Of a stretch of DNA of 64,000 bases, positions 3,779-11,864 are shown piece by piece (positions within the stretch are counted from its first letter, which is position 1; the number at the start of each line of letters is the position of its first letter). Both the position numbers and the translations under genes were made by a program. Origin of the DNA: Roseivirga ehrenbergii (GTDB taxonomy: Bacteria; Bacteroidota; Bacteroidia; Cytophagales; Cyclobacteriaceae); the NCBI RefSeq assembly GCF_001593005.1, contig NZ_LQZQ01000001.1, positions 372,001-436,000 on the forward strand. Reading direction: 5' to 3'. Under the pieces are notes generated by a model, which was not told the DNA's origin, did not search any database, and was given only the letters and a program-made list of their open reading frames with translations.

Positions 3779-5308
3779 TTAACTCAGCTCATCTTCATCA
3801 AAGTCTTCCATATCATCAATGGAGAACATACTGCTGAGTAGATCTTTGAAGCGGGTGCCTGTATCTAAAGCAGACTTGCTCAGTTTACTGTATTCGGCCA
3901 AGCCGTGAAGCACGAACTCCATGAGAAACAGTTGCTCGTCTTTAGATTTTTTAGGATACTTATTCTTTACTAAGTCTGCCAAGCCAGGCACAGATAAAAG
4001 CGCTTTCTCATATGCTTCGTTAGAAAGATCGTTCAGTAAATCAATCGTATATCCTTCTCCAAACCAATTAATAATGGCTTTGTAAGGATTTTCCGTTTTC
4101 TCTCCTTTGTCCTTTTTCTTTTCGTCTGGGTTTGGAAAGTAATCCAAGAACTGTGTCCGAATGGCCTTGCCCACCAAGTTATGCGCTACTATACCAGGCC
4201 CTTCTTGTTCGCCCTCATACACCAACTCTACCTTACCGGTAATGGCAGGAATGACTCCTACAAAGTCGGAAACACGAACGTAAGTTTGGTTTTCTCCATT
4301 CATTAAAGCCCTTCTTTCCGCAGCGCTCAATAAATTTTCGTAAGCCGAAATCGTCAGTCGTGCCGAAACCCCACTTTTTTCATCTACATACTCGCTATTT
4401 CTGGCTTCAATCGCCACTTGCTCAATGAGATCTTGCGCAATTTCATTCAAGACAATTTTCTCTTTCTGCGCTTCTTTAATGTCTGCCTCTTGCACCGTAA
4501 TCTGCTTTCCTATTTCCAAAGTTTTTGGATAATGGGTGATAATCTGGCTATCGATACGGTCTTTCAACGGAGTTACAATACTGCCTCGGTTGGTATAATC
4601 TTCAGGGTTTGCGGTAAATACAAACTGAATATCTAAAGGAAGTCTCAATTTGAAACCTCTGATTTGAATATCGCCTTCTTGCAAAATATTGAAAAGTGCC
4701 ACCTGAATCCTGGCTTGTAAATCAGGCAATTCATTAATGACAAAAATGCCCCTATGCGACCTCGGCACCATGCCGTAATGGATCACACGCTCATCTGAAT
4801 AAGGCAATTTTAAAGAAGCAGCTTTGATCGGGTCAACATCGCCAATTAAATCCGCAATAGACACATCGGGCGTAGCCAGTTTTTCAGAATAACGATCGCT
4901 GCGATGGAGCCAAGCAACAGGGGTTTTATCTCCCATTTCCTTCACTTTCTCCAGCCCAAATTTAGTGATGGGGTTCAACGGATCATCATTCAATTCAGAA
5001 CCTTCAATCACCGGCACATACTCGTCCAAAAGCAAAGTCATTTGACGGGCAATTCTGGTTTTGGCTTGCCCCCTTAAACCCAACAAATTCATGTTGTGCT
5101 TGGAAAGAATGGCGCGTTCCACATCAGGAATTACGGTGTCTTCATAACCCCAAATACCTTCAAAAGTAGGCTCCTTGTTCACCAGTTTTTTGATCAGGTT
5201 ATCACGAAGTTCATCCTTTACAGATTTACTTTGATAGCCCGCCTTTTTCAAAGCGCCAAGGGTATTTATCTTCAATAATTGATCAGAGGTCAATTTGTAA
5301 TAGCTCAT
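3779..5308 (-). CDS. MoxR/magnesium-chelatase-I-like AAA+ ATPase
   Basis: A 509-residue AAA+ protein. Walker A is GLRGQAKT (about 77-84), the Walker B region reads GIFVINE (about 187-193, Asn in place of the usual Asp before Glu), and sensor 1 is FTANPED (about 231-237). It resembles the BchI/ChlI-like branch of MoxR ATPases, which act as chaperones or remodellers with a von Willebrand A partner; the vWA gene lies directly upstream with one base between stop and start. I chose the ATG at 5308; a longer frame to 5389 would overlap the partner by about 80 bases. The C terminus ends in an acidic tail (DDMEDFDEDELS). No pigment or Mg-chelatase genes are nearby, so a general remodelling role is more likely. 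Confidence 0.82.
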   Translation of the reverse strand: MSYYKLTSDQLLKINTLGALKKAGYQSKSVKDELRDNLIKKLVNKEPTFEGIWGYEDTVIPDVERAILSKHNMNLLGLRGQAKTRIARQMTLLLDEYVPVIEGSELNDDPLNPITKFGLEKVKEMGDKTPVAWLHRSDRYSEKLATPDVSIADLIGDVDPIKAASLKLPYSDERVIHYGMVPRSHRGIFVINELPDLQARIQVALFNILQEGDIQIRGFKLRLPLDIQFVFTANPEDYTNRGSIVTPLKDRIDSQIITHYPKTLEIGKQITVQEADIKEAQKEKIVLNEIAQDLIEQVAIEARNSEYVDEKSGVSARLTISAYENLLSAAERRALMNGENQTYVRVSDFVGVIPAITGKVELVYEGEQEGPGIVAHNLVGKAIRTQFLDYFPNPDEKKKDKGEKTENPYKAIINWFGEGYTIDLLNDLSNEAYEKALLSVPGLADLVKNKYPKKSKDEQLFLMEFVLHGLAEYSKLSKSALDTGTRFKDLLSSMFSIDDMEDFDEDELS

Positions 5309-5309
5309 A

Positions 5310-6407
5310 TTAAAATCGTTTTCTGCGATTGCGTTTAAAGTCTTCAAAAATAACGTGCCCCAAGCCCTTAAGGCTACTGTAATAGGCATTGCCGTTATTG
5401 GCTGCGGTAAATTCCTTCACAAACTCCTTCAGATATGGATCTGACGCAATCATAAAAGTGGTAATAGGAATTTGTAATCTTTTACACTGGCTCGCCAAGT
5501 TCAGTGTTTTATTAAAAATCTTTGGATCGAGCCCAAAGGCGTTTTTGTAGTATTTAATTCCAACTTTCATACAGGTGGGTTTTCCATCTGTAATCATGAA
5601 AATTTGCTTGTTGGCGTTTTTCCTTCTTCTTAGAATATCCATGGCCAGTTCTAGCCCAGCAATGGTGTTGGTATGGTAGGGCCCAACTTGGAGATAAGGC
5701 AAATCTTTGATTTCAATCTGCCAAGCATCGTTCCCAAATACAATCACATCAAGTGTGTCTTTAGGGTATTTGGTTTTGATAAGTTCGGCCAAGGCCATGG
5801 CCACTTTTTTAGCCGGAGTAATTCTATCTTCCCCATACAAAATCATGGAATGGGAAATATCAATCATCAGCACTGTTGAAGTCTGAGTTTTGTATTCTGT
5901 TTCAATGACCTCCAAGTCATTTTCGGTCAGCTTAAACTCTCCGAAACCGTTATTGATTTGCGCGTTGCGAATAGAATCCGTCATGGCGATTTGCTGAAGT
6001 GAATCGCCAAATTCGAAAGGGCGTCTGTCGGTGCCCGTCTCATCTCCTATCCCTGAAAAGGAAGTTTTGTGCTGTCCTTTTCCTGATTTTTTCAGCTTCC
6101 CAAAAATTTCTTCCAAAGAAGATTTTCTGATTTCCTGCCCCGTTTTATCGGTCACCTGAAACTTACCATCTCCGTTTTGTTCGGTCAGATAGCCTTTACC
6201 CTTCAGGTCTTCAATAAAATCACCAATGCCATAATTACCATTGGTGATGTTGTATTGCTTATCTAAATTCGTCAACCAACTAAGTGCCTCACCAGCATCA
6301 CCTCCTGTAATACTAATCAACTGTAAGAAGATATTCAGTAGATTGTCAAAGGCCGATTGTCCAGCCGTTTTTTGCGGAATGTATTTTGAAAATCGATATC
6401 CTTTCAT
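5310..6407 (-). CDS. von Willebrand factor A domain protein, partner of the MoxR ATPase
   Basis: 365 residues. The vWA domain occupies about 175-350 with a complete metal-ion-dependent adhesion site: DISHS (183-187), a Thr in HTNT (about 248) and the Asp of ITDG (274). The N-terminal 170 residues form a charged region without a known fold and contain no signal peptide, so the protein is cytoplasmic. Gene pairs of MoxR-like ATPase and MIDAS protein act together in assembling or inserting cofactors into protein complexes (known for RavA-ViaA and CbbQO-type pairs). It is the first gene of the two-gene operon. Substrate complex unknown. Confidence 0.82.
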   Translation of the reverse strand: MKGYRFSKYIPQKTAGQSAFDNLLNIFLQLISITGGDAGEALSWLTNLDKQYNITNGNYGIGDFIEDLKGKGYLTEQNGDGKFQVTDKTGQEIRKSSLEEIFGKLKKSGKGQHKTSFSGIGDETGTDRRPFEFGDSLQQIAMTDSIRNAQINNGFGEFKLTENDLEVIETEYKTQTSTVLMIDISHSMILYGEDRITPAKKVAMALAELIKTKYPKDTLDVIVFGNDAWQIEIKDLPYLQVGPYHTNTIAGLELAMDILRRRKNANKQIFMITDGKPTCMKVGIKYYKNAFGLDPKIFNKTLNLASQCKRLQIPITTFMIASDPYLKEFVKEFTAANNGNAYYSSLKGLGHVIFEDFKRNRRKRF

Positions 6408-6454: not shown

Positions 6455-6567
6455 TTTCTTTTTAAGTGAAGCGGCTTAACCAAAATCTATTCAATTAAAA
6501 GTGTATCTTTTTTCAACCATGGCGTTATACTGTCAAAATTCTAAACCTATGCAAAGCTTCTGAGAGA

Positions 6568-7146
6568 ATGATAGCCACAGAAAACATCAATGCCGATGCG
6601 ATCTCAGAAAACGAGCTGATAGAGTGGTCCAAGAAGGATCATTGCTATTTTGAGCCCATTTACGAAAAATACTATGAGCCCATTTTCAGGCTGATTATGT
6701 GCAGGGTACAGGACGAACAGGTAACCAAAGACATCACTTCGAATGTGTTTTGTAAGGCCTTGGTGAATCTGGACAAGTACAAATTTCAGGGATTGAGTTT
6801 CTCGTCTTGGCTTTATCGTTTGGCGCTTAACAGCTGCTACGATTATTTCAGAACCCAGAATAAAAAGCGCACGGTGGTTTTAGAAGAGTTTATGACTCAG
6901 GAAATGGCCGAAGAGTTTGAGCCAGAGGCTTTGTATTTACAAAGAGGGCTCAAGCTACTGCCAGAAGTACTGGATAAGTTAAAGCCGAGGGACCTTGAGC
7001 TGATTGAACTCAGGTTTTTTGAGTCGAAGAGTTTTAAGGAGATCGGTGAGATTTTGGGGATAACTGAGAACAACGCCAAAACCCTATCGCACCGCATTTT
7101 AAAGAGAATTAGAAAAAAATTAGAGCCGAACAGATATGAAATATAG
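6568..7146 (+). CDS. ECF-type RNA polymerase sigma factor
   Basis: 192 residues with the two domains of an ECF sigma factor: region 2 (about 26-95, FEPIYEKYYEPIFRLI and FSSWLYRLALNSCYDYFR) binds the -10 element and core polymerase; region 4 (about 128-185, ELIELRFFESKSFKEIGEILG...NAKTLSHRILKRI) is the helix-turn-helix for the -35 element. It overlaps the next gene by 11 bases. No classical zinc anti-sigma follows; instead the next gene is a one-pass membrane protein with a TonB-like domain, which takes the position of an anti-sigma factor. It likely controls the secreted-protein unit downstream (inference from gene order). Confidence 0.88.
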   Translation: MIATENINADAISENELIEWSKKDHCYFEPIYEKYYEPIFRLIMCRVQDEQVTKDITSNVFCKALVNLDKYKFQGLSFSSWLYRLALNSCYDYFRTQNKKRTVVLEEFMTQEMAEEFEPEALYLQRGLKLLPEVLDKLKPRDLELIELRFFESKSFKEIGEILGITENNAKTLSHRILKRIRKKLEPNRYEI

Positions 7147-7900
7147 ATATTTGAAAAAAGGCAAAAAAGTAAGTTCAGAGCAAATAAAGGCTCAGATGGA
7201 CTTTAGTAGCGTACTGGAAAATTCAGCTACTATGCTGGAGGGCAACCTTCCCAAAGATGTTATCACCAAATCTGGAGTGAGCAGAATGTGGTTTCTACTA
7301 CTCTTATTGCCACTTGCTGCTGGAGTTTACTTTTATACGCTTCCGAGCGAACCCTTAGAAAATGCTTCACAGCCCCCTATTGAGCAACAGGTAGCAGAAG
7401 AAATGCCCGAACAAACTGTTCCTTTAGATACAATTGAGAGCAATACCACTGAAAAAAATGTAACGGAAAAGGATGCGGTTGTGATAGCCAAACCAGAGCC
7501 ACAGGTTTCTCCAGAGCCCAAACAAAAAGTAACCGAAACCAATGCGGTAAAAGAAAAAGAGGCTGCCTTTAGTAAAGAAGTTGAAAAAGAAGATGTCTTT
7601 ATAAAGGCCAGCCCAAAGATGGGTTTTGAGGCATTTTATGCTTTTTTGGATCAGGAAATCAAGTTCCCAGAAAATGCCAATTCAAATATTTTTGAAGGCT
7701 ATGTAAAAGTGCTTTTTGCCATTAATCCAGACGGCAGCATTTCTGATTTTGAAATCCAAGAAAGCTTGGGCGAGTCTTTCGATAAAGAAGCCCTACGGGT
7801 GCTCAAATTGGTGAATGAATGGAGTCCTGCTACTTTTAATAGTGAGGCCGTACGCAGCCAGCTTTCTATAAAACTAAAGTTTGACCGAGACAATAATTAA
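7136..7900 (+). CDS. One-pass membrane protein with TonB C-terminal-like domain
   Basis: 254 residues: a cytoplasmic N-terminal segment of about 50 residues, one membrane helix (about 51-69, MWFLLLLLPLAAGVYFYTL), a long Pro/Glu/Lys/Thr-rich periplasmic linker (70-155) and a TonB-C-like fold (about 165-250; YVKVLFAINPDGSISDFEI and LKLVNEWSPA). The architecture is that of a TonB-type protein, but the N-terminal 50 residues facing the cytoplasm and the 11-base overlap with the sigma gene make an anti-sigma or sigma-tethering role possible. There is no ExbB/ExbD next to it. Starts at ATG 7136 inside the sigma gene. Confidence 0.75.
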   Translation: MKYRYLKKGKKVSSEQIKAQMDFSSVLENSATMLEGNLPKDVITKSGVSRMWFLLLLLPLAAGVYFYTLPSEPLENASQPPIEQQVAEEMPEQTVPLDTIESNTTEKNVTEKDAVVIAKPEPQVSPEPKQKVTETNAVKEKEAAFSKEVEKEDVFIKASPKMGFEAFYAFLDQEIKFPENANSNIFEGYVKVLFAINPDGSISDFEIQESLGESFDKEALRVLKLVNEWSPATFNSEAVRSQLSIKLKFDRDNN

Positions 7901-7902
7901 TC

Positions 7903-10383
7903 ATGAGGAAGCTAAGACCAATTGCCTGCCTGTTTTTATTGTTTCTCGTCAAGCTTACAAGTGCTCAGACATTCCAGAAACAAGATTCATTAAAACTGCC
8001 CACTCTAACAAACCCTCAAATGGTTTGGGCAGATTTTAACTCTGACAAATATTATGATCTGCTCGTTTACGGAAAAGAGCCTAGCAGCGATTCCACTCAA
8101 TTTTTTCTTTTCAAAAACGAGGGTGACTTGTTCGTTGAATCTATTCGCCTGCCCTTTTTCGACCTTAAAATTCATGCCTTAGAGATAATTGACATCGATA
8201 AAGATGGTGAATTAGACATTGTGTTTTCTGGCGTAAAAGCAGGCACAGACACGCTGTTCTCATCACTCATCAATCAAGGAGGATTTGAATTTCAACTGCT
8301 CCCTACTCCAATGGCTTCTATTCTTACTGAAGAGTTTATGCTTCGAGACTTTAACAGAGACAATCTTTTGGAATTGGTTTACATAGACTCCGATGCAAAA
8401 GTTAAATACTTAACGGGCACAGCACTTGGCTGGGAAGAGCAACCAAATTTTTTCAACGATTCACCAGCAGATGCACTATTCGATTTGGACCTGAACAGTG
8501 ATGGCCTCCGGGACTTGCTGATTTCTTCTTCTAACCGACCAGACTCATTGACCCGATATCTCCAGAACCGGCTTTCGAAATGGGAGGATTTTCAAAAACC
8601 TTTTCCTTTTGATAACCTATCCATCAGTATTTTTACCCATGGGGCTTTTACTAAAAGTGGCTATCCAGATATGTTTCTTTCAGGAAACTTAATGGGAGGC
8701 AGCTCGTCCAACTTCTTGATAAAAAGCAAACAAGATACTTTTGACCTTACCGAAATTCTTCCTGACATAGAAGTTTTAGATGCTCTAATGGCAGATTTTG
8801 ATTCTGATGGAAAAACAGACTTATGGCTTAGCACCCGCAACGAAGACAACGAATTTGCTAGTTATTTTCTAAATGATTTAGCCGACCCGAAGGACACCGT
8901 AATCATGAATACAGAAAATGCCTCCGTAACTCGTTTTGCGGATTATACCAGAGATGGAAATCTAGACTTCGCTCAACTGCTTTCTTCTGGTGATTCTTTG
9001 GAAGTTTTCTTCTTCAAAAATGAACAAACCCTATTCAATGAAGGGCCTAGGAACCCACATTTAATCAATGCGGTTCAAACGGGAATAGGACAAGGGTTAA
9101 TTGTTTGGGGTACAGGTTATGATTCACTCACAGCAACTGAGCTTATATCATATGATGTAATCATAGCCAACTCAGATACCGTAGCCCTTAATGATGGCAC
9201 TCTTAATATTAATACGCCTAACCCACGGCTCCCAAATCACGGTAATCAGCTTTACGCCAAACAGTCCATTTTTAGCAATTTGGCACCCGGAAATTACTTT
9301 CACTATATAAATGCTGCTGATAATGCATTCAATTATCTAAGTAATGGAAACTGCAAACCTAACACTAACATTCTCAATCAATTTGCCATCTGCACAGCAG
9401 AAGATTTAGAAGCCTCAGTGATTGAAACATGTAAAGGAAGCACATTGGTATTGGGCACACCTACCATTTTAAGGAATTGGGTTTCGGAAAAACGTGGCCC
9501 TTTAGGTCAATCCTCCATATTACGGTACGAAGCGGATTTAGACGACACGATCTATGGATCTGTGGTGGAATTTAAAAATTGTAGCGATGGCCAGCTAACA
9601 TATATTATCCAGTCAAAGGATACCGAAATTCCAGAGCTCAATATGCCTAAATACAACCTTATTTGTCCAGGAGATACGGTGTCATTCTCAGCAGATGCAG
9701 CATGGAGCAACATTCAATGGACAGCGGCCCAATTAGGTAATCTGGGCGCTGGACATGCCATCAGCTTTGTGCCCACAGAATCTCAGCTCGTTTTTTTCTA
9801 TGGCGAAAACGAAGACGGCTGTTCTTTTAACTACACAACTTTTGTAGAAATAGAAGATTTTAAGCCCTCAGTCAAAGACTCCGTTTTAACCATTAATGTC
9901 GGTGAAAGTGTAGAATTAATGGCCAGCGGGGGTTCCTCCTATAAATGGCTACCTTCTGTAGGTCTTAGCAACCCTAACATTGCAAATCCGCAGGCAAGCC
10001 CACGATCAGACATTACCTATATGGTGACCATAACAAGCGAAAATGGATGTACAGAAACATTAGAAGTTCAGGTAAATGTTACCCAAACTGGAGGAGTCGC
10101 CAATCTTTTTACGCCAAATGGCGATGGTAGGAACGACAACATTGTGGTTTTTCTAAGTCAAGTTCCAAACGAATTTCAATTCAGTATATTCAACCGATCG
10201 GGTAATTTAGTCTACCAAACCAAAAATCCGCAAGAGGCCATGAATAGTGGGTGGGATGGTACCGTAAATGGATCAACCGTTTCGAGTGGTGTCTATTTCT
10301 GGAGCGTGAGTGGACAATTTGAAAATGGCCAACCCGTAAAACTCAATGGTACCACCAATGGTAAAATCAGTTTAGTGAGGTAA
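7903..10383 (+). CDS. Secreted FG-GAP/VCBS-like protein with type B (CHU_C) T9SS sorting domain
   Basis: 826 residues with a signal peptide (cleavage near TSAQ, residue 21). The N-terminal half has repeats around calcium-loop-like DxDxDG segments (DIDKDGELDIVFSG, DLNSDGLRDLLIS, DFDSDGKTDLWLS), typical of FG-GAP/VCBS beta-propellers. Around 600-730 there are Ig-like/PKD-like modules. The last 90 residues (LFTPNGDGRND, FQFSIFNRSGNLVYQ, GWDGTVNGSTVSSGVYFW) are the CHU_C type B sorting domain recognised by the type IX secretion system. It is therefore probably exported to or through the cell surface. The next gene, a PorP/SprF protein, starts within its stop (TAATG), the usual pairing for type B cargo such as SprB/SprF. 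Ligand unknown. Confidence 0.85.
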   Translation: MRKLRPIACLFLLFLVKLTSAQTFQKQDSLKLPTLTNPQMVWADFNSDKYYDLLVYGKEPSSDSTQFFLFKNEGDLFVESIRLPFFDLKIHALEIIDIDKDGELDIVFSGVKAGTDTLFSSLINQGGFEFQLLPTPMASILTEEFMLRDFNRDNLLELVYIDSDAKVKYLTGTALGWEEQPNFFNDSPADALFDLDLNSDGLRDLLISSSNRPDSLTRYLQNRLSKWEDFQKPFPFDNLSISIFTHGAFTKSGYPDMFLSGNLMGGSSSNFLIKSKQDTFDLTEILPDIEVLDALMADFDSDGKTDLWLSTRNEDNEFASYFLNDLADPKDTVIMNTENASVTRFADYTRDGNLDFAQLLSSGDSLEVFFFKNEQTLFNEGPRNPHLINAVQTGIGQGLIVWGTGYDSLTATELISYDVIIANSDTVALNDGTLNINTPNPRLPNHGNQLYAKQSIFSNLAPGNYFHYINAADNAFNYLSNGNCKPNTNILNQFAICTAEDLEASVIETCKGSTLVLGTPTILRNWVSEKRGPLGQSSILRYEADLDDTIYGSVVEFKNCSDGQLTYIIQSKDTEIPELNMPKYNLICPGDTVSFSADAAWSNIQWTAAQLGNLGAGHAISFVPTESQLVFFYGENEDGCSFNYTTFVEIEDFKPSVKDSVLTINVGESVELMASGGSSYKWLPSVGLSNPNIANPQASPRSDITYMVTITSENGCTETLEVQVNVTQTGGVANLFTPNGDGRNDNIVVFLSQVPNEFQFSIFNRSGNLVYQTKNPQEAMNSGWDGTVNGSTVSSGVYFWSVSGQFENGQPVKLNGTTNGKISLVR

Positions 10384-11864
10384 TGAGAATGAACCGAAGG
10401 TCACTAGTTATTCTTTCTCTTTTGAGTATTTTCATGATTGAAAGTGCCTACTCACAACAGTTTAATTTTTCGTTGCTTTCTTATGCAGAACAAAGGTTGA
10501 ACCCTGCTTATGCGGCTACCGATAACTATTGGGCCGCAGATGCCCTTCATAGAAGTCAGCAAACAGCACCCGACTTCAGCATTAACAGTACTTCATTTTC
10601 ATTCAAATATCCTCATTTGATGCCAAACCGCCAGAATGTGCAAGGCGGTTTTGGGTTGAATGTAATGAATGATCAATCTGGAAGTACAAATACTTTTGAG
10701 GTTCAAGAAGTAGGGCTTTCCTATGCACTTCAGTTTAAGTCCGATATTGGTGAAACACTTTCTTTTGGCGTTAGTGGCTTTCATCATAAGCAAGGGTTCA
10801 CTTTCTCCAATTTCCTGACCAATACCCAATACATTCCCGATAGAGGTTTTGATTCTTCCATCAACAATGGAGAAACTCTGCAAGAATTGAGTGACACCTA
10901 TTTCCGAATAAATACAGGAATGCTCTATCAGTATATGAACAAGAATGGCCAATTAATTTCACGTTTAGGCTTTTCTATTTTTGACGTAAACAGACCTGAA
11001 AGTTCATTCTTCAATACTGGGTCAAAAGTCCCTCCCACTTACATGGGCGAGTTATTCTTCTCCATTTACCAAACACCAAAATTGAATGTAACCCCTAATT
11101 TTCTCTGGGTTCATCACACCAAAAGAAACAGGCTAAATATTGGGCTAGCCAGTGAATATCAAGTAGCGAATGACACTAAAATTGGTTTGGGACTTAAGTA
11201 TCTGTTGGGAAGAGATTTAATAAGCTCCATCGAACTCCAAAAAGGAAACTTATCAATTGGAATGGACTATGACTTGTCTGTAAACGCAAAAAACTCAGCC
11301 AATACGGGCGCTTTCGAGTTTGGGTTAAGACTAAAAGGATTGGTGCGAGAGAGAGAGAAAAGAAAAAAACAGAGTCCCAAAAAAATTTCTCAACCACTTA
11401 GAGCAGCACCAGAGAAACGCTACAACCTGCAGCCAATTACGCTACCGAGTTACGTGCCAATGGCACAGCTACCAATTGGGCAAGTTGTAGCCAAAAACAC
11501 CAAGCCCACTAAAACAGGAACAGCCCAAGTAGAACAATCCTATTCGTTCAATTATTCACTCAATCAGTATGCCCTTAAGGAACGAATCAAAGAAGAATTA
11601 AGGCCTATCTTAAACAGCCTCATGGCTGATGAAATTAAATTCGTAACCATCGAAGGCCATACCGACAATACAGGTAGTGCTGAATTGAATAATAGACTAT
11701 CGCTATCGCGTGCCCAAACCATTGCCGACTATTTGATAGAAAATGGAGTTTCTGAAAAAAGGATTCAAGTGCGTGGTTACGGAGAAGAAATTCCTATCAG
11801 TAATAACAACACACCATTAGGCAGAGCGATGAATCGTAGGGTTGTTATTTCCATTTATCGCTAG
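10383..11864 (+). CDS. PorP/SprF family outer-membrane protein fused to OmpA-like domain
   Basis: 493 residues: signal peptide (about 1-24), a PorP/SprF barrel (about 25-315; QFNFSLLSYAEQRLNPAYA is the typical opening), a basic Lys/Pro-rich linker (about 318-380) and an OmpA C-terminal domain (about 385-493; IEGHTDNTGS, LSLSRAQTIADYL, RGYGEE, NRRVVI) that binds peptidoglycan. PorP/SprF proteins dock type B cargo at the surface after T9SS export. Most family members lack an OmpA domain, so here the anchor seems tied to the cell wall. The start codon overlaps the upstream stop; a second ATG six bases later (10389) is equally possible. Confidence 0.88.
   Translation: MRMNRRSLVILSLLSIFMIESAYSQQFNFSLLSYAEQRLNPAYAATDNYWAADALHRSQQTAPDFSINSTSFSFKYPHLMPNRQNVQGGFGLNVMNDQSGSTNTFEVQEVGLSYALQFKSDIGETLSFGVSGFHHKQGFTFSNFLTNTQYIPDRGFDSSINNGETLQELSDTYFRINTGMLYQYMNKNGQLISRLGFSIFDVNRPESSFFNTGSKVPPTYMGELFFSIYQTPKLNVTPNFLWVHHTKRNRLNIGLASEYQVANDTKIGLGLKYLLGRDLISSIELQKGNLSIGMDYDLSVNAKNSANTGAFEFGLRLKGLVREREKRKKQSPKKISQPLRAAPEKRYNLQPITLPSYVPMAQLPIGQVVAKNTKPTKTGTAQVEQSYSFNYSLNQYALKERIKEELRPILNSLMADEIKFVTIEGHTDNTGSAELNNRLSLSRAQTIADYLIENGVSEKRIQVRGYGEEIPISNNNTPLGRAMNRRVVISIYR

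Follow-up and report, generated by a model that had tools for sequence, protein, structure and literature searches.

Within a 64,000-nucleotide stretch of the Roseivirga ehrenbergii genome (contig NZ_LQZQ01000001.1, positions 372,001 to 436,000; hereafter the window), we analysed four adjoining genes encoding an extracytoplasmic function (ECF) sigma factor, a TonB-like membrane protein, a cargo protein of the type IX secretion system (T9SS) and a PorP/SprF outer-membrane barrel fused to an OmpA domain, which on balance probably constitute an autoregulated surface-signalling and export operon. Pfam and NCBIfam searches identified the four open reading frames (ORFs) on the forward strand at 6568–11864, with an 11-base overlap between the sigma and TonB-like genes, a 2-base gap before the cargo gene and a 1-base overlap, TAATG, between the cargo and SprF genes, confirming the reading frames and junctions given in a first-pass annotation of this DNA. 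The features of the locus are as follows.

6502–6527, forward strand: conserved promoter-like element TGTATC-N15-CGTTA, candidate site for the unit's own sigma factor (pattern compared with shuffled sequences)
6568–7146, forward strand: ECF sigma factor, 192 residues, regions 2 and 4 only (Pfam Sigma70_r2 and Sigma70_r4; TIGR02937 above its cut-off)
7136–7900, forward strand: putative one-pass sigma regulator with TonB_C, 254 residues (Pfam, AlphaFold model, fold match)
7136–7255, forward strand: candidate N-terminal cytosolic sigma-partner motif, residues 1–40, F23 invariant (alignments, motif profile)
7274–7336, forward strand: predicted transmembrane helix, residues 47–67 (hydrophobic by eye)
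7601–7885, forward strand: periplasmic TonB_C domain, residues 156–250 (Pfam, model, fold match)
7903–10383, forward strand: T9SS type B cargo, 826 residues, with signal sequence (by eye), FG-GAP propeller, immunoglobulin-like region and sorting domain
10096–10380, forward strand: type B C-terminal sorting domain, residues 732–826 (TIGR04131, CHU_C)
10383–11864, forward strand: PorP/SprF barrel fused to an OmpA domain of the peptidoglycan-binding type, 493 residues (TIGR03519, PF11751, PF00691)
11562–11837, forward strand: OmpA-like domain behind the barrel, residues 394–485 (PF00691, 73.7 bits, cut-off 27.2)

To place the unit among its relatives, we used three collections: a relatives sample of 99 genomes (98 relatives and the window's own genome), queried with the TonB-like protein; an order sample of 291 genomes of the Cytophagales, the order that includes both Roseivirga and Marivirga, searched for members of the unit; and 80 named loci picked by their sigma factor alone. 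The complete four-gene order was found at 26 Cytophagales loci, 25 of them additional to the window, which carries it beyond close relatives and into at least 14 genera and five families (as counted from units with genome identifiers). The 26 comprise ten from 20 inspected neighbourhoods, ten from 16 further neighbourhoods, five from the sigma-selected loci and the window itself; four loci reaching contig ends (L053, L091, L109 and L245) were left out, and loci sharing a contig (L105 with L039, L126 with L054) were counted once. As only the top-scoring matches were inspected, unit counts are lower bounds, amounting to at least 15 of the 99 genomes in the relatives sample and at least 12 of the 291 in the order sample. 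The first 20 neighbourhoods yielded ten complete units and 11 solitary sigma/TonB-like pairs, two of which adjoin a second, diverged four-gene copy (G007 and G009); one locus was cut by a contig end. Full-length matches to the TonB-like protein occurred in 12 of 18 congeners as well as in other genera, and a thirteenth congener (G012), with a C-terminal match only in the search, has an N terminus that could be aligned separately. One unit (L096) includes a 202-residue sigma ORF overlapping its neighbour. Among loci with a species name, Marivirga atlantica carries all four genes (L163), and Roseivirga spongicola has a pair with no adjoining cargo (L104).

The sigma genes of units and pairs are preceded by an element of the form TGTATC-N15-CRTT or close variants of it. 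The strict form, TGTATC-N14-16-CRTT, was present in 20 of the 26 complete units (shuffle mean 0.08; none on the opposite strand), a looser pattern in 22 (shuffle mean 1.76; one on the opposite strand) and the loosest in all 26 (shuffle mean 2.7; three on the opposite strand). Similarly, the strict form marked 50 of the 80 sigma-selected loci (shuffle mean 0.7; opposite strand one) and 20 of the 34 regions containing units and pairs (0.07; zero), and the promoter was retained in each of the eight congeners that carry the sigma/TonB-like pair without the cargo half. The operon site was the single match in the window at up to three mismatches, itself having none, where shuffled sequences give 3.3. 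Throughout the window's own genome, the form TGTATCTTTTN11CGTT was found solely at the operon site; one further TGTATCTTTT site, at C3:140253, has the spacer N10-CATT, and this second site is shared by a congener where no unit was found (G005). Judged by pattern matching, the strong promoter site appears to belong to the operon alone, and since the conserved candidate promoter occurs once in the genome in its exact form, it is unlikely that the sigma factor controls unrelated genes only, an outcome that the first-pass annotation had considered. Across 18 same-genus genomes, promoter matches outside sigma sites were about as numerous as those of a reversed-pattern control, and a wider regulon defined by the motif was rejected, counts of the relaxed pattern being at chance level in the window's own genome. 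Two large same-genus genomes contain a second, diverged four-gene copy adjoining a sigma/TonB-like pair (L038:11229-16567 and L042:4287-9613), with another promoter form, TGTAACGTCT..CGTT as opposed to TGTATCTTTT..CGTT, as though each second copy were insulated from its neighbour.

The TonB-like protein, as aligned across units, consists of a conserved stretch of 35 residues at its start, a membrane helix, a linker rich in proline and glutamate, and a TonB_C domain (PF03544, residues 174–249, 54.1 bits). An AlphaFold model shows short helices at residues 14–20 and 23–34, a helix at 47–67, an unstructured stretch and a confidently predicted TonB_C domain, and this domain matches TonB C-terminal domains in the PDB, the best match being TonB in complex with an outer-membrane transporter. 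The N-terminal module contains an invariant [DN]F motif, with F23 conserved in all 33 aligned TonB-like proteins. We built a hidden Markov model (HMM) of this module from 23 TonB-like proteins (the window and 20 loci), which matched 52 of the 1208 ORFs in the 80 sigma-selected loci, four of which share contigs with its training set; 51 of the matches immediately follow the sigma gene, and the remaining one comes one gene later. An extended HMM, built from 87 sequences that all carry the phenylalanine and partly trained on the loci on which it was scored, detected the motif at 104 of 110 sigma loci (the window's own and same-genus loci included) and in none of 1085 background ORFs. Among the six misses, two have the sigma gene near contig ends (L106 and L142), two have a partner found by the first HMM (L127 and L139), and at the remaining two (L159 and L180) no motif-bearing partner was found.

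This module follows the sigma gene directly in records named Saprospiraceae, Flavobacteriales, Crocinitomicaceae and others, where its C-terminal continuation is a part of about 570 residues, another sequence or nothing at all; among the 104 partners, 24 complete ones have fewer than 100 residues, which leaves room for little besides the motif and a membrane helix, and a further partner is cut off. The N-terminal sequence stays with the sigma factor while the far side of the membrane varies, which is the pattern expected of a sigma-binding segment, and together these data provide strong circumstantial evidence that the motif would bind the sigma factor. The genes themselves are tightly joined, 21 of 33 listed sigma/TonB-like junctions being 4-base overlaps. 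Where sigma-selected loci had 3.5 kb or more of sequence downstream, TonB_C-bearing partners were accompanied by cargo and SprF in seven of ten cases and other partners in none of 57; at one locus with a partner lacking TonB_C (L165), an ORF with a type B C-terminal domain lies nearby. The first-pass annotation had proposed that the cytosolic tail of the TonB-like protein stands in for an anti-sigma factor, of which the class-wide link of the N-terminal module to the sigma factor, with its changing periplasmic parts, supports the regulatory side, leaving the inhibitory sign uncertain.

A search for a known family behind the N-terminal motif found no Pfam family matching more than one of 26 members (best expectation value, E, 0.01), and the motif profile recovered no anti-sigma factor from PDB sequences at E up to 5. 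The shortest sigma partners (L122, L150, L155, L165, L169 and others) have 52–98 residues and consist mostly of motif and membrane helix, and those of about 540–600 residues (L107, L110–L115, L128, L130, L134, L153 and others) share the same N terminus; in five scanned partners of 537–579 residues, no Pfam family scored above its cut-off. Elsewhere in the window's own genome, TonB_C terminates further regulators: a BlaR1-type M56 protein adjoins a penicillinase repressor gene, and in a second sigma/TonB_C pairing, on contig C49 (L003:1468-3253), a sigma gene overlaps the gene of a 429-residue protein that combines a carboxypeptidase-regulatory-like domain with TonB_C and has a different N terminus.

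The third gene, described in the first-pass annotation as a type B cargo resembling a beta-propeller, carries FG-GAP_3 and CHU_C/TIGR04131 domains (46.4 bits, cut-off 35), together with an Ig_7 match below its cut-off. Its model (mean predicted local distance difference test score, pLDDT, 85) has a propeller followed by immunoglobulin-like domains, and its closest fold matches are fragments of GhpA of Aureispira, then immunoglobulin chains, CRTAC1, integrin, a KICSTOR subunit and others, of which CRTAC1 and the KICSTOR subunit are propeller proteins. The type B assignment is upheld, and the propeller-like fold is plausible from the FG-GAP repeats and the model. Propeller and immunoglobulin-like folds often serve binding, and the cargo proteins of the units are conserved along their length. 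The export route is represented in the window's own genome by the T9SS translocon component SprA (TIGR04189, 2451.9 bits), to which this search was limited.

The fourth gene was correctly recognised as a fusion of a PorP/SprF barrel (PF11751; TIGR03519, 122.8 bits, cut-off 90.55) to an OmpA domain, in which D428 and R443 are invariant in 19 of 19 proteins; we take these two to correspond, in role and in their 15-residue spacing, to the diaminopimelate-binding aspartate and arginine of Acinetobacter OmpA. No cysteine pair follows the barrel in any of 22 SprF proteins from units, three of which have a single cysteine past residue 300, and the window's protein contains no cysteine at all. With OmpA in place of a twin-cysteine tail, and with D428 and R443 invariant, the cargo is expected to be held still on the wall and not moved along a track. 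We rejected the fusion as the novel element, as fusions adjoin type B cargo without a sigma gene, both in other orders of the class (L240–L244 and L246) and in the same order.

Taking these observations together, we propose that the operon is transcribed by means of its own ECF sigma factor from the TGTATC-N15-CRTT element, for which the evidence is strong if circumstantial, and that the TonB-like protein would bind the sigma factor through its short cytosolic N terminus, with two predicted short helices and the [DN]F motif, most likely keeping it inactive. From the known functions of their families, the cargo would pass the outer membrane through the T9SS and then be handed to the SprF-type barrel encoded downstream, which the fused OmpA domain would tie to peptidoglycan. 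The long linker could bring TonB_C up to the inner side of the outer membrane; there the domain may sense whether SprF/OmpA is empty, loaded or externally bound, and release or sequester the sigma factor accordingly; the preferential association of TonB_C-bearing partners with cargo and SprF speaks in favour of such a reading of SprF/OmpA by TonB_C. In evolutionary terms, a sigma/regulator module may have joined a cargo–SprF/OmpA module that also exists alone. A broader version of this proposal, which we hold only tentatively, is that one ECF subgroup recognising TGTAWC-N15-CRTT is governed across the class by minimal membrane-tethered regulators, with about 35 cytosolic residues, the [DN]F motif, one helix and swappable or absent sensors, and that in the Cytophagales these are wired through TonB_C to the loading state of PorP/SprF, such that a T9SS cargo would report its own export and anchoring.

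Several observations weigh against the operon being a self-contained circuit. The full unit is uncommon in the order sample, and eight of the 18 sampled congeners have the sigma/TonB-like pair without adjoining cargo or SprF, three of which (G002, G013 and G016) gave no cargo match genome-wide at E 1e-35. In five further congeners (G003, G005, G006, G008 and G014, the G008 assembly being 84% complete), the best TonB-like match was weak (E 1.9e-11 to 1.5e-14), covering the C-terminal domain only among the matches listed, which do not include G003. The export half also occurs separately: lower-scoring cargo relatives of 824–1932 residues have SprF/OmpA after them, and the stretch retrieved around them contains no sigma gene (G318, G122, G253 and G229), and two genomes (G327 and G041) have a second cargo–SprF/OmpA copy without a sigma gene besides their own unit (L283 and L287). 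Such sigma-less copies imply that neither half needs the other, and this separability counts against TonB_C reading SprF/OmpA. Also, the relaxed promoter pattern gave 16 matches in the window's own genome and 15 in a reversed control, so that weak additional sites may exist; confidence in the predicted N-terminal helices is low (pLDDT about 57–76); and N termini of the FecR type can activate sigma factors too, according to PMC9249621, which makes the label 'anti' uncertain. Finally, sigma binding, its sign and the TonB_C–SprF contact are circumstantial readings drawn from sequence. The unit thus brings together a regulatory and an export half that both occur separately as well, and this qualifies the first-pass description of a self-contained system.

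In the order sample, 11 of the 12 best-scoring genomes in the cargo search (at least 366 bits) have their cargo in a unit, and in the twelfth (G260) the locus is cut at the contig start. Propeller cargo followed by SprF/OmpA, in the same order and without a sigma gene, was found at L247, L282, L283, L285, L287 and L288; one genome (G188) has a cargo relative with no SprF after it, and in another (G210) SprF precedes the cargo. At L247 and L287, very long ORFs precede the cargo and an ORF of 577–596 residues follows, as if these were part of other surface operons.

The most serious alternative, which we regard as a real possibility although not the probable one, is that the sigma factor and its partner form an autonomous envelope-sensing pair, for which cargo and SprF/OmpA are mere output with no feedback from export, TonB_C sensing instead a TonB-dependent receptor, peptidoglycan or another outer-membrane protein. 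The pair does stand alone, not only in the eight congeners but also beside the second copies in G007 and G009 and at L057, L099 and L100; the N-terminal module is also joined to different periplasmic domains, or to none at all, usually at loci where neither cargo nor SprF is close by; and related cargo–SprF/OmpA pairs exist without a sigma gene. What this explanation accommodates less readily is the confinement of cargo and SprF to loci with TonB_C-bearing partners (seven of ten, against none of 57), which fits a functional tie between the halves but may stem from shared ancestry.

It is very improbable that the TonB-like protein is instead a dedicated energy transducer of the SprF/OmpA barrel, next to the sigma gene as a matter of operon convenience. 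Its TonB_C fold, the best PDB match to a TonB–transporter complex and a linker that, judged by its length, could span the periplasm are all compatible with that role. However, compared by eye, its N terminus and membrane helix are unlike their counterparts in three TonB_C proteins that the genome encodes in tandem, which we take to be its TonBs, and on the strength of this N terminus we rejected the protein as an ordinary energy transducer. The N-terminal motif moreover tracks the sigma subgroup even where TonB_C is absent, no ExbB or ExbD was found among eight proteins scanned in and around the unit, and PorP/SprF is, to our knowledge, not a TonB-dependent receptor. Adjacency by synteny alone, with no functional link among the four genes, would suit the patchy distribution of the unit but can scarcely be credited given that the genes stay together over 14 genera, mostly in overlapping or touching frames, with a shared promoter element.

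The proposed autoregulated operon can be set beside several known systems. At the level of families, the unit's sigma factor scored above the cut-off of TIGR02937 and stayed below the cut-off for each of 24 further NCBIfam families displayed, out of 84; TIGR02985, 'Sig70_bacteroi1', which we take to cover FecI-like sigma factors of Bacteroidota, reached 76.2 bits, below its cut-off of 126.4, and the factor is in this respect unlike FecI. As described in PMC9249621, the FecI–FecR–FecA system combines an ECF sigma factor, a one-pass regulator with a cytosolic N terminus and a periplasmic C terminus, and an outer-membrane barrel. The unit likewise has a sigma factor, a one-pass regulator and an outer-membrane barrel, but its regulator has TonB_C alone in Pfam and no FecR domain, a secreted protein and a PorP/SprF–OmpA barrel take the place of the TonB-dependent receptor with its signalling domain, and the sigma gene is the first gene of the operon that it appears to drive. 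In inhibitory class II anti-sigma factors of the CnrY type, a cytosolic segment of less than about 50 residues with two helices binds the sigma factor, wrapping sigma2 and sigma4. The short cytosolic segment of the unit's regulator, with two helices predicted at low confidence, may resemble CnrY as presented in PMC7406223 and PMC4598750; unlike CnrY, the unit's partner has no sequence match to a solved anti-sigma factor, and the same chain bears a periplasmic TonB_C domain.

The nearest precedent is the PorA–PorXY–SigP system of Porphyromonas gingivalis, in which a surface protein with a T9SS C-terminal domain influences an ECF sigma factor and for which a feedback model has been proposed (PMC7712824). 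As set out there, that system works through a histidine kinase and a response regulator, controls genes of T9SS components and has PorA homologues in Porphyromonas only, whereas the unit contains no histidine kinase or response regulator genes. Type B cargo of Flavobacterium johnsoniae is described as needing an SprF-like shuttle, which for SprB and for Fjoh_3952 is the one encoded just downstream (PMC12618676), and the unit resembles such SprB–SprF pairs in having a type B cargo gene followed by an SprF-like gene. The gliding SprF has a twin-cysteine tail, one cysteine of which is reported to be bound to GldK of the moving track (PMC12635249), in contrast to the unit's barrel, which ends in OmpA without a cysteine pair. 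For the sprB–sprF operon of F. psychrophilum, two promoters are predicted in PMC9723704, one of them for sigma-54.

Fec already provides an example of an ECF sigma factor whose one-pass regulator is tied to an outer-membrane barrel, and PorA–PorXY–SigP one of an ECF sigma factor on which a T9SS cargo acts. In line with the view of the first-pass annotation that the sigma and TonB-like parts in this arrangement are undescribed, we did not encounter it in the open-licence papers searched, a search that did not cover subscription journals; relative to that literature, the four-gene combination, the private promoter and the N-terminal regulator family are apparently new. Only 6% of Bacteroidetes ECF sigma factors are stated to adjoin a class I anti-sigma factor, compared with 32% over all phyla, other anti-sigma classes being one possible reason (PMC7406223). 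The N-terminal motif offers a concrete candidate for such a class, and the predicted promoter translates into a testable regulon. If the proposal is true, the Cytophagales version would give T9SS export a transcriptional readout of its own, for which we found one precedent, the two-component system of P. gingivalis, and it would represent a form of cell-surface signalling based on type IX secretion rather than on TonB-dependent uptake.

A sigma-70 promoter scan gave seven sites, fewer than the 12.2 of shuffled sequences, and a terminator scan gave seven, about equal to the 5.3 of shuffles. Downstream of the unit or pair, several relatives have a 297-residue ORF (L043:13629-14522; also L038, L044, L046, L049, L050 and L051), which is missing from the corresponding place in the window; of these, only the L043 copy was scanned, and it proved to be a MerR regulator that carries a B12-binding domain. 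Upstream of the unit, at 3779–6407, lie divergent genes for an Mg-chelatase-like protein and a VWA-domain protein, and in several congeners ORFs of similar lengths and orientation, the two properties compared, occupy their place.

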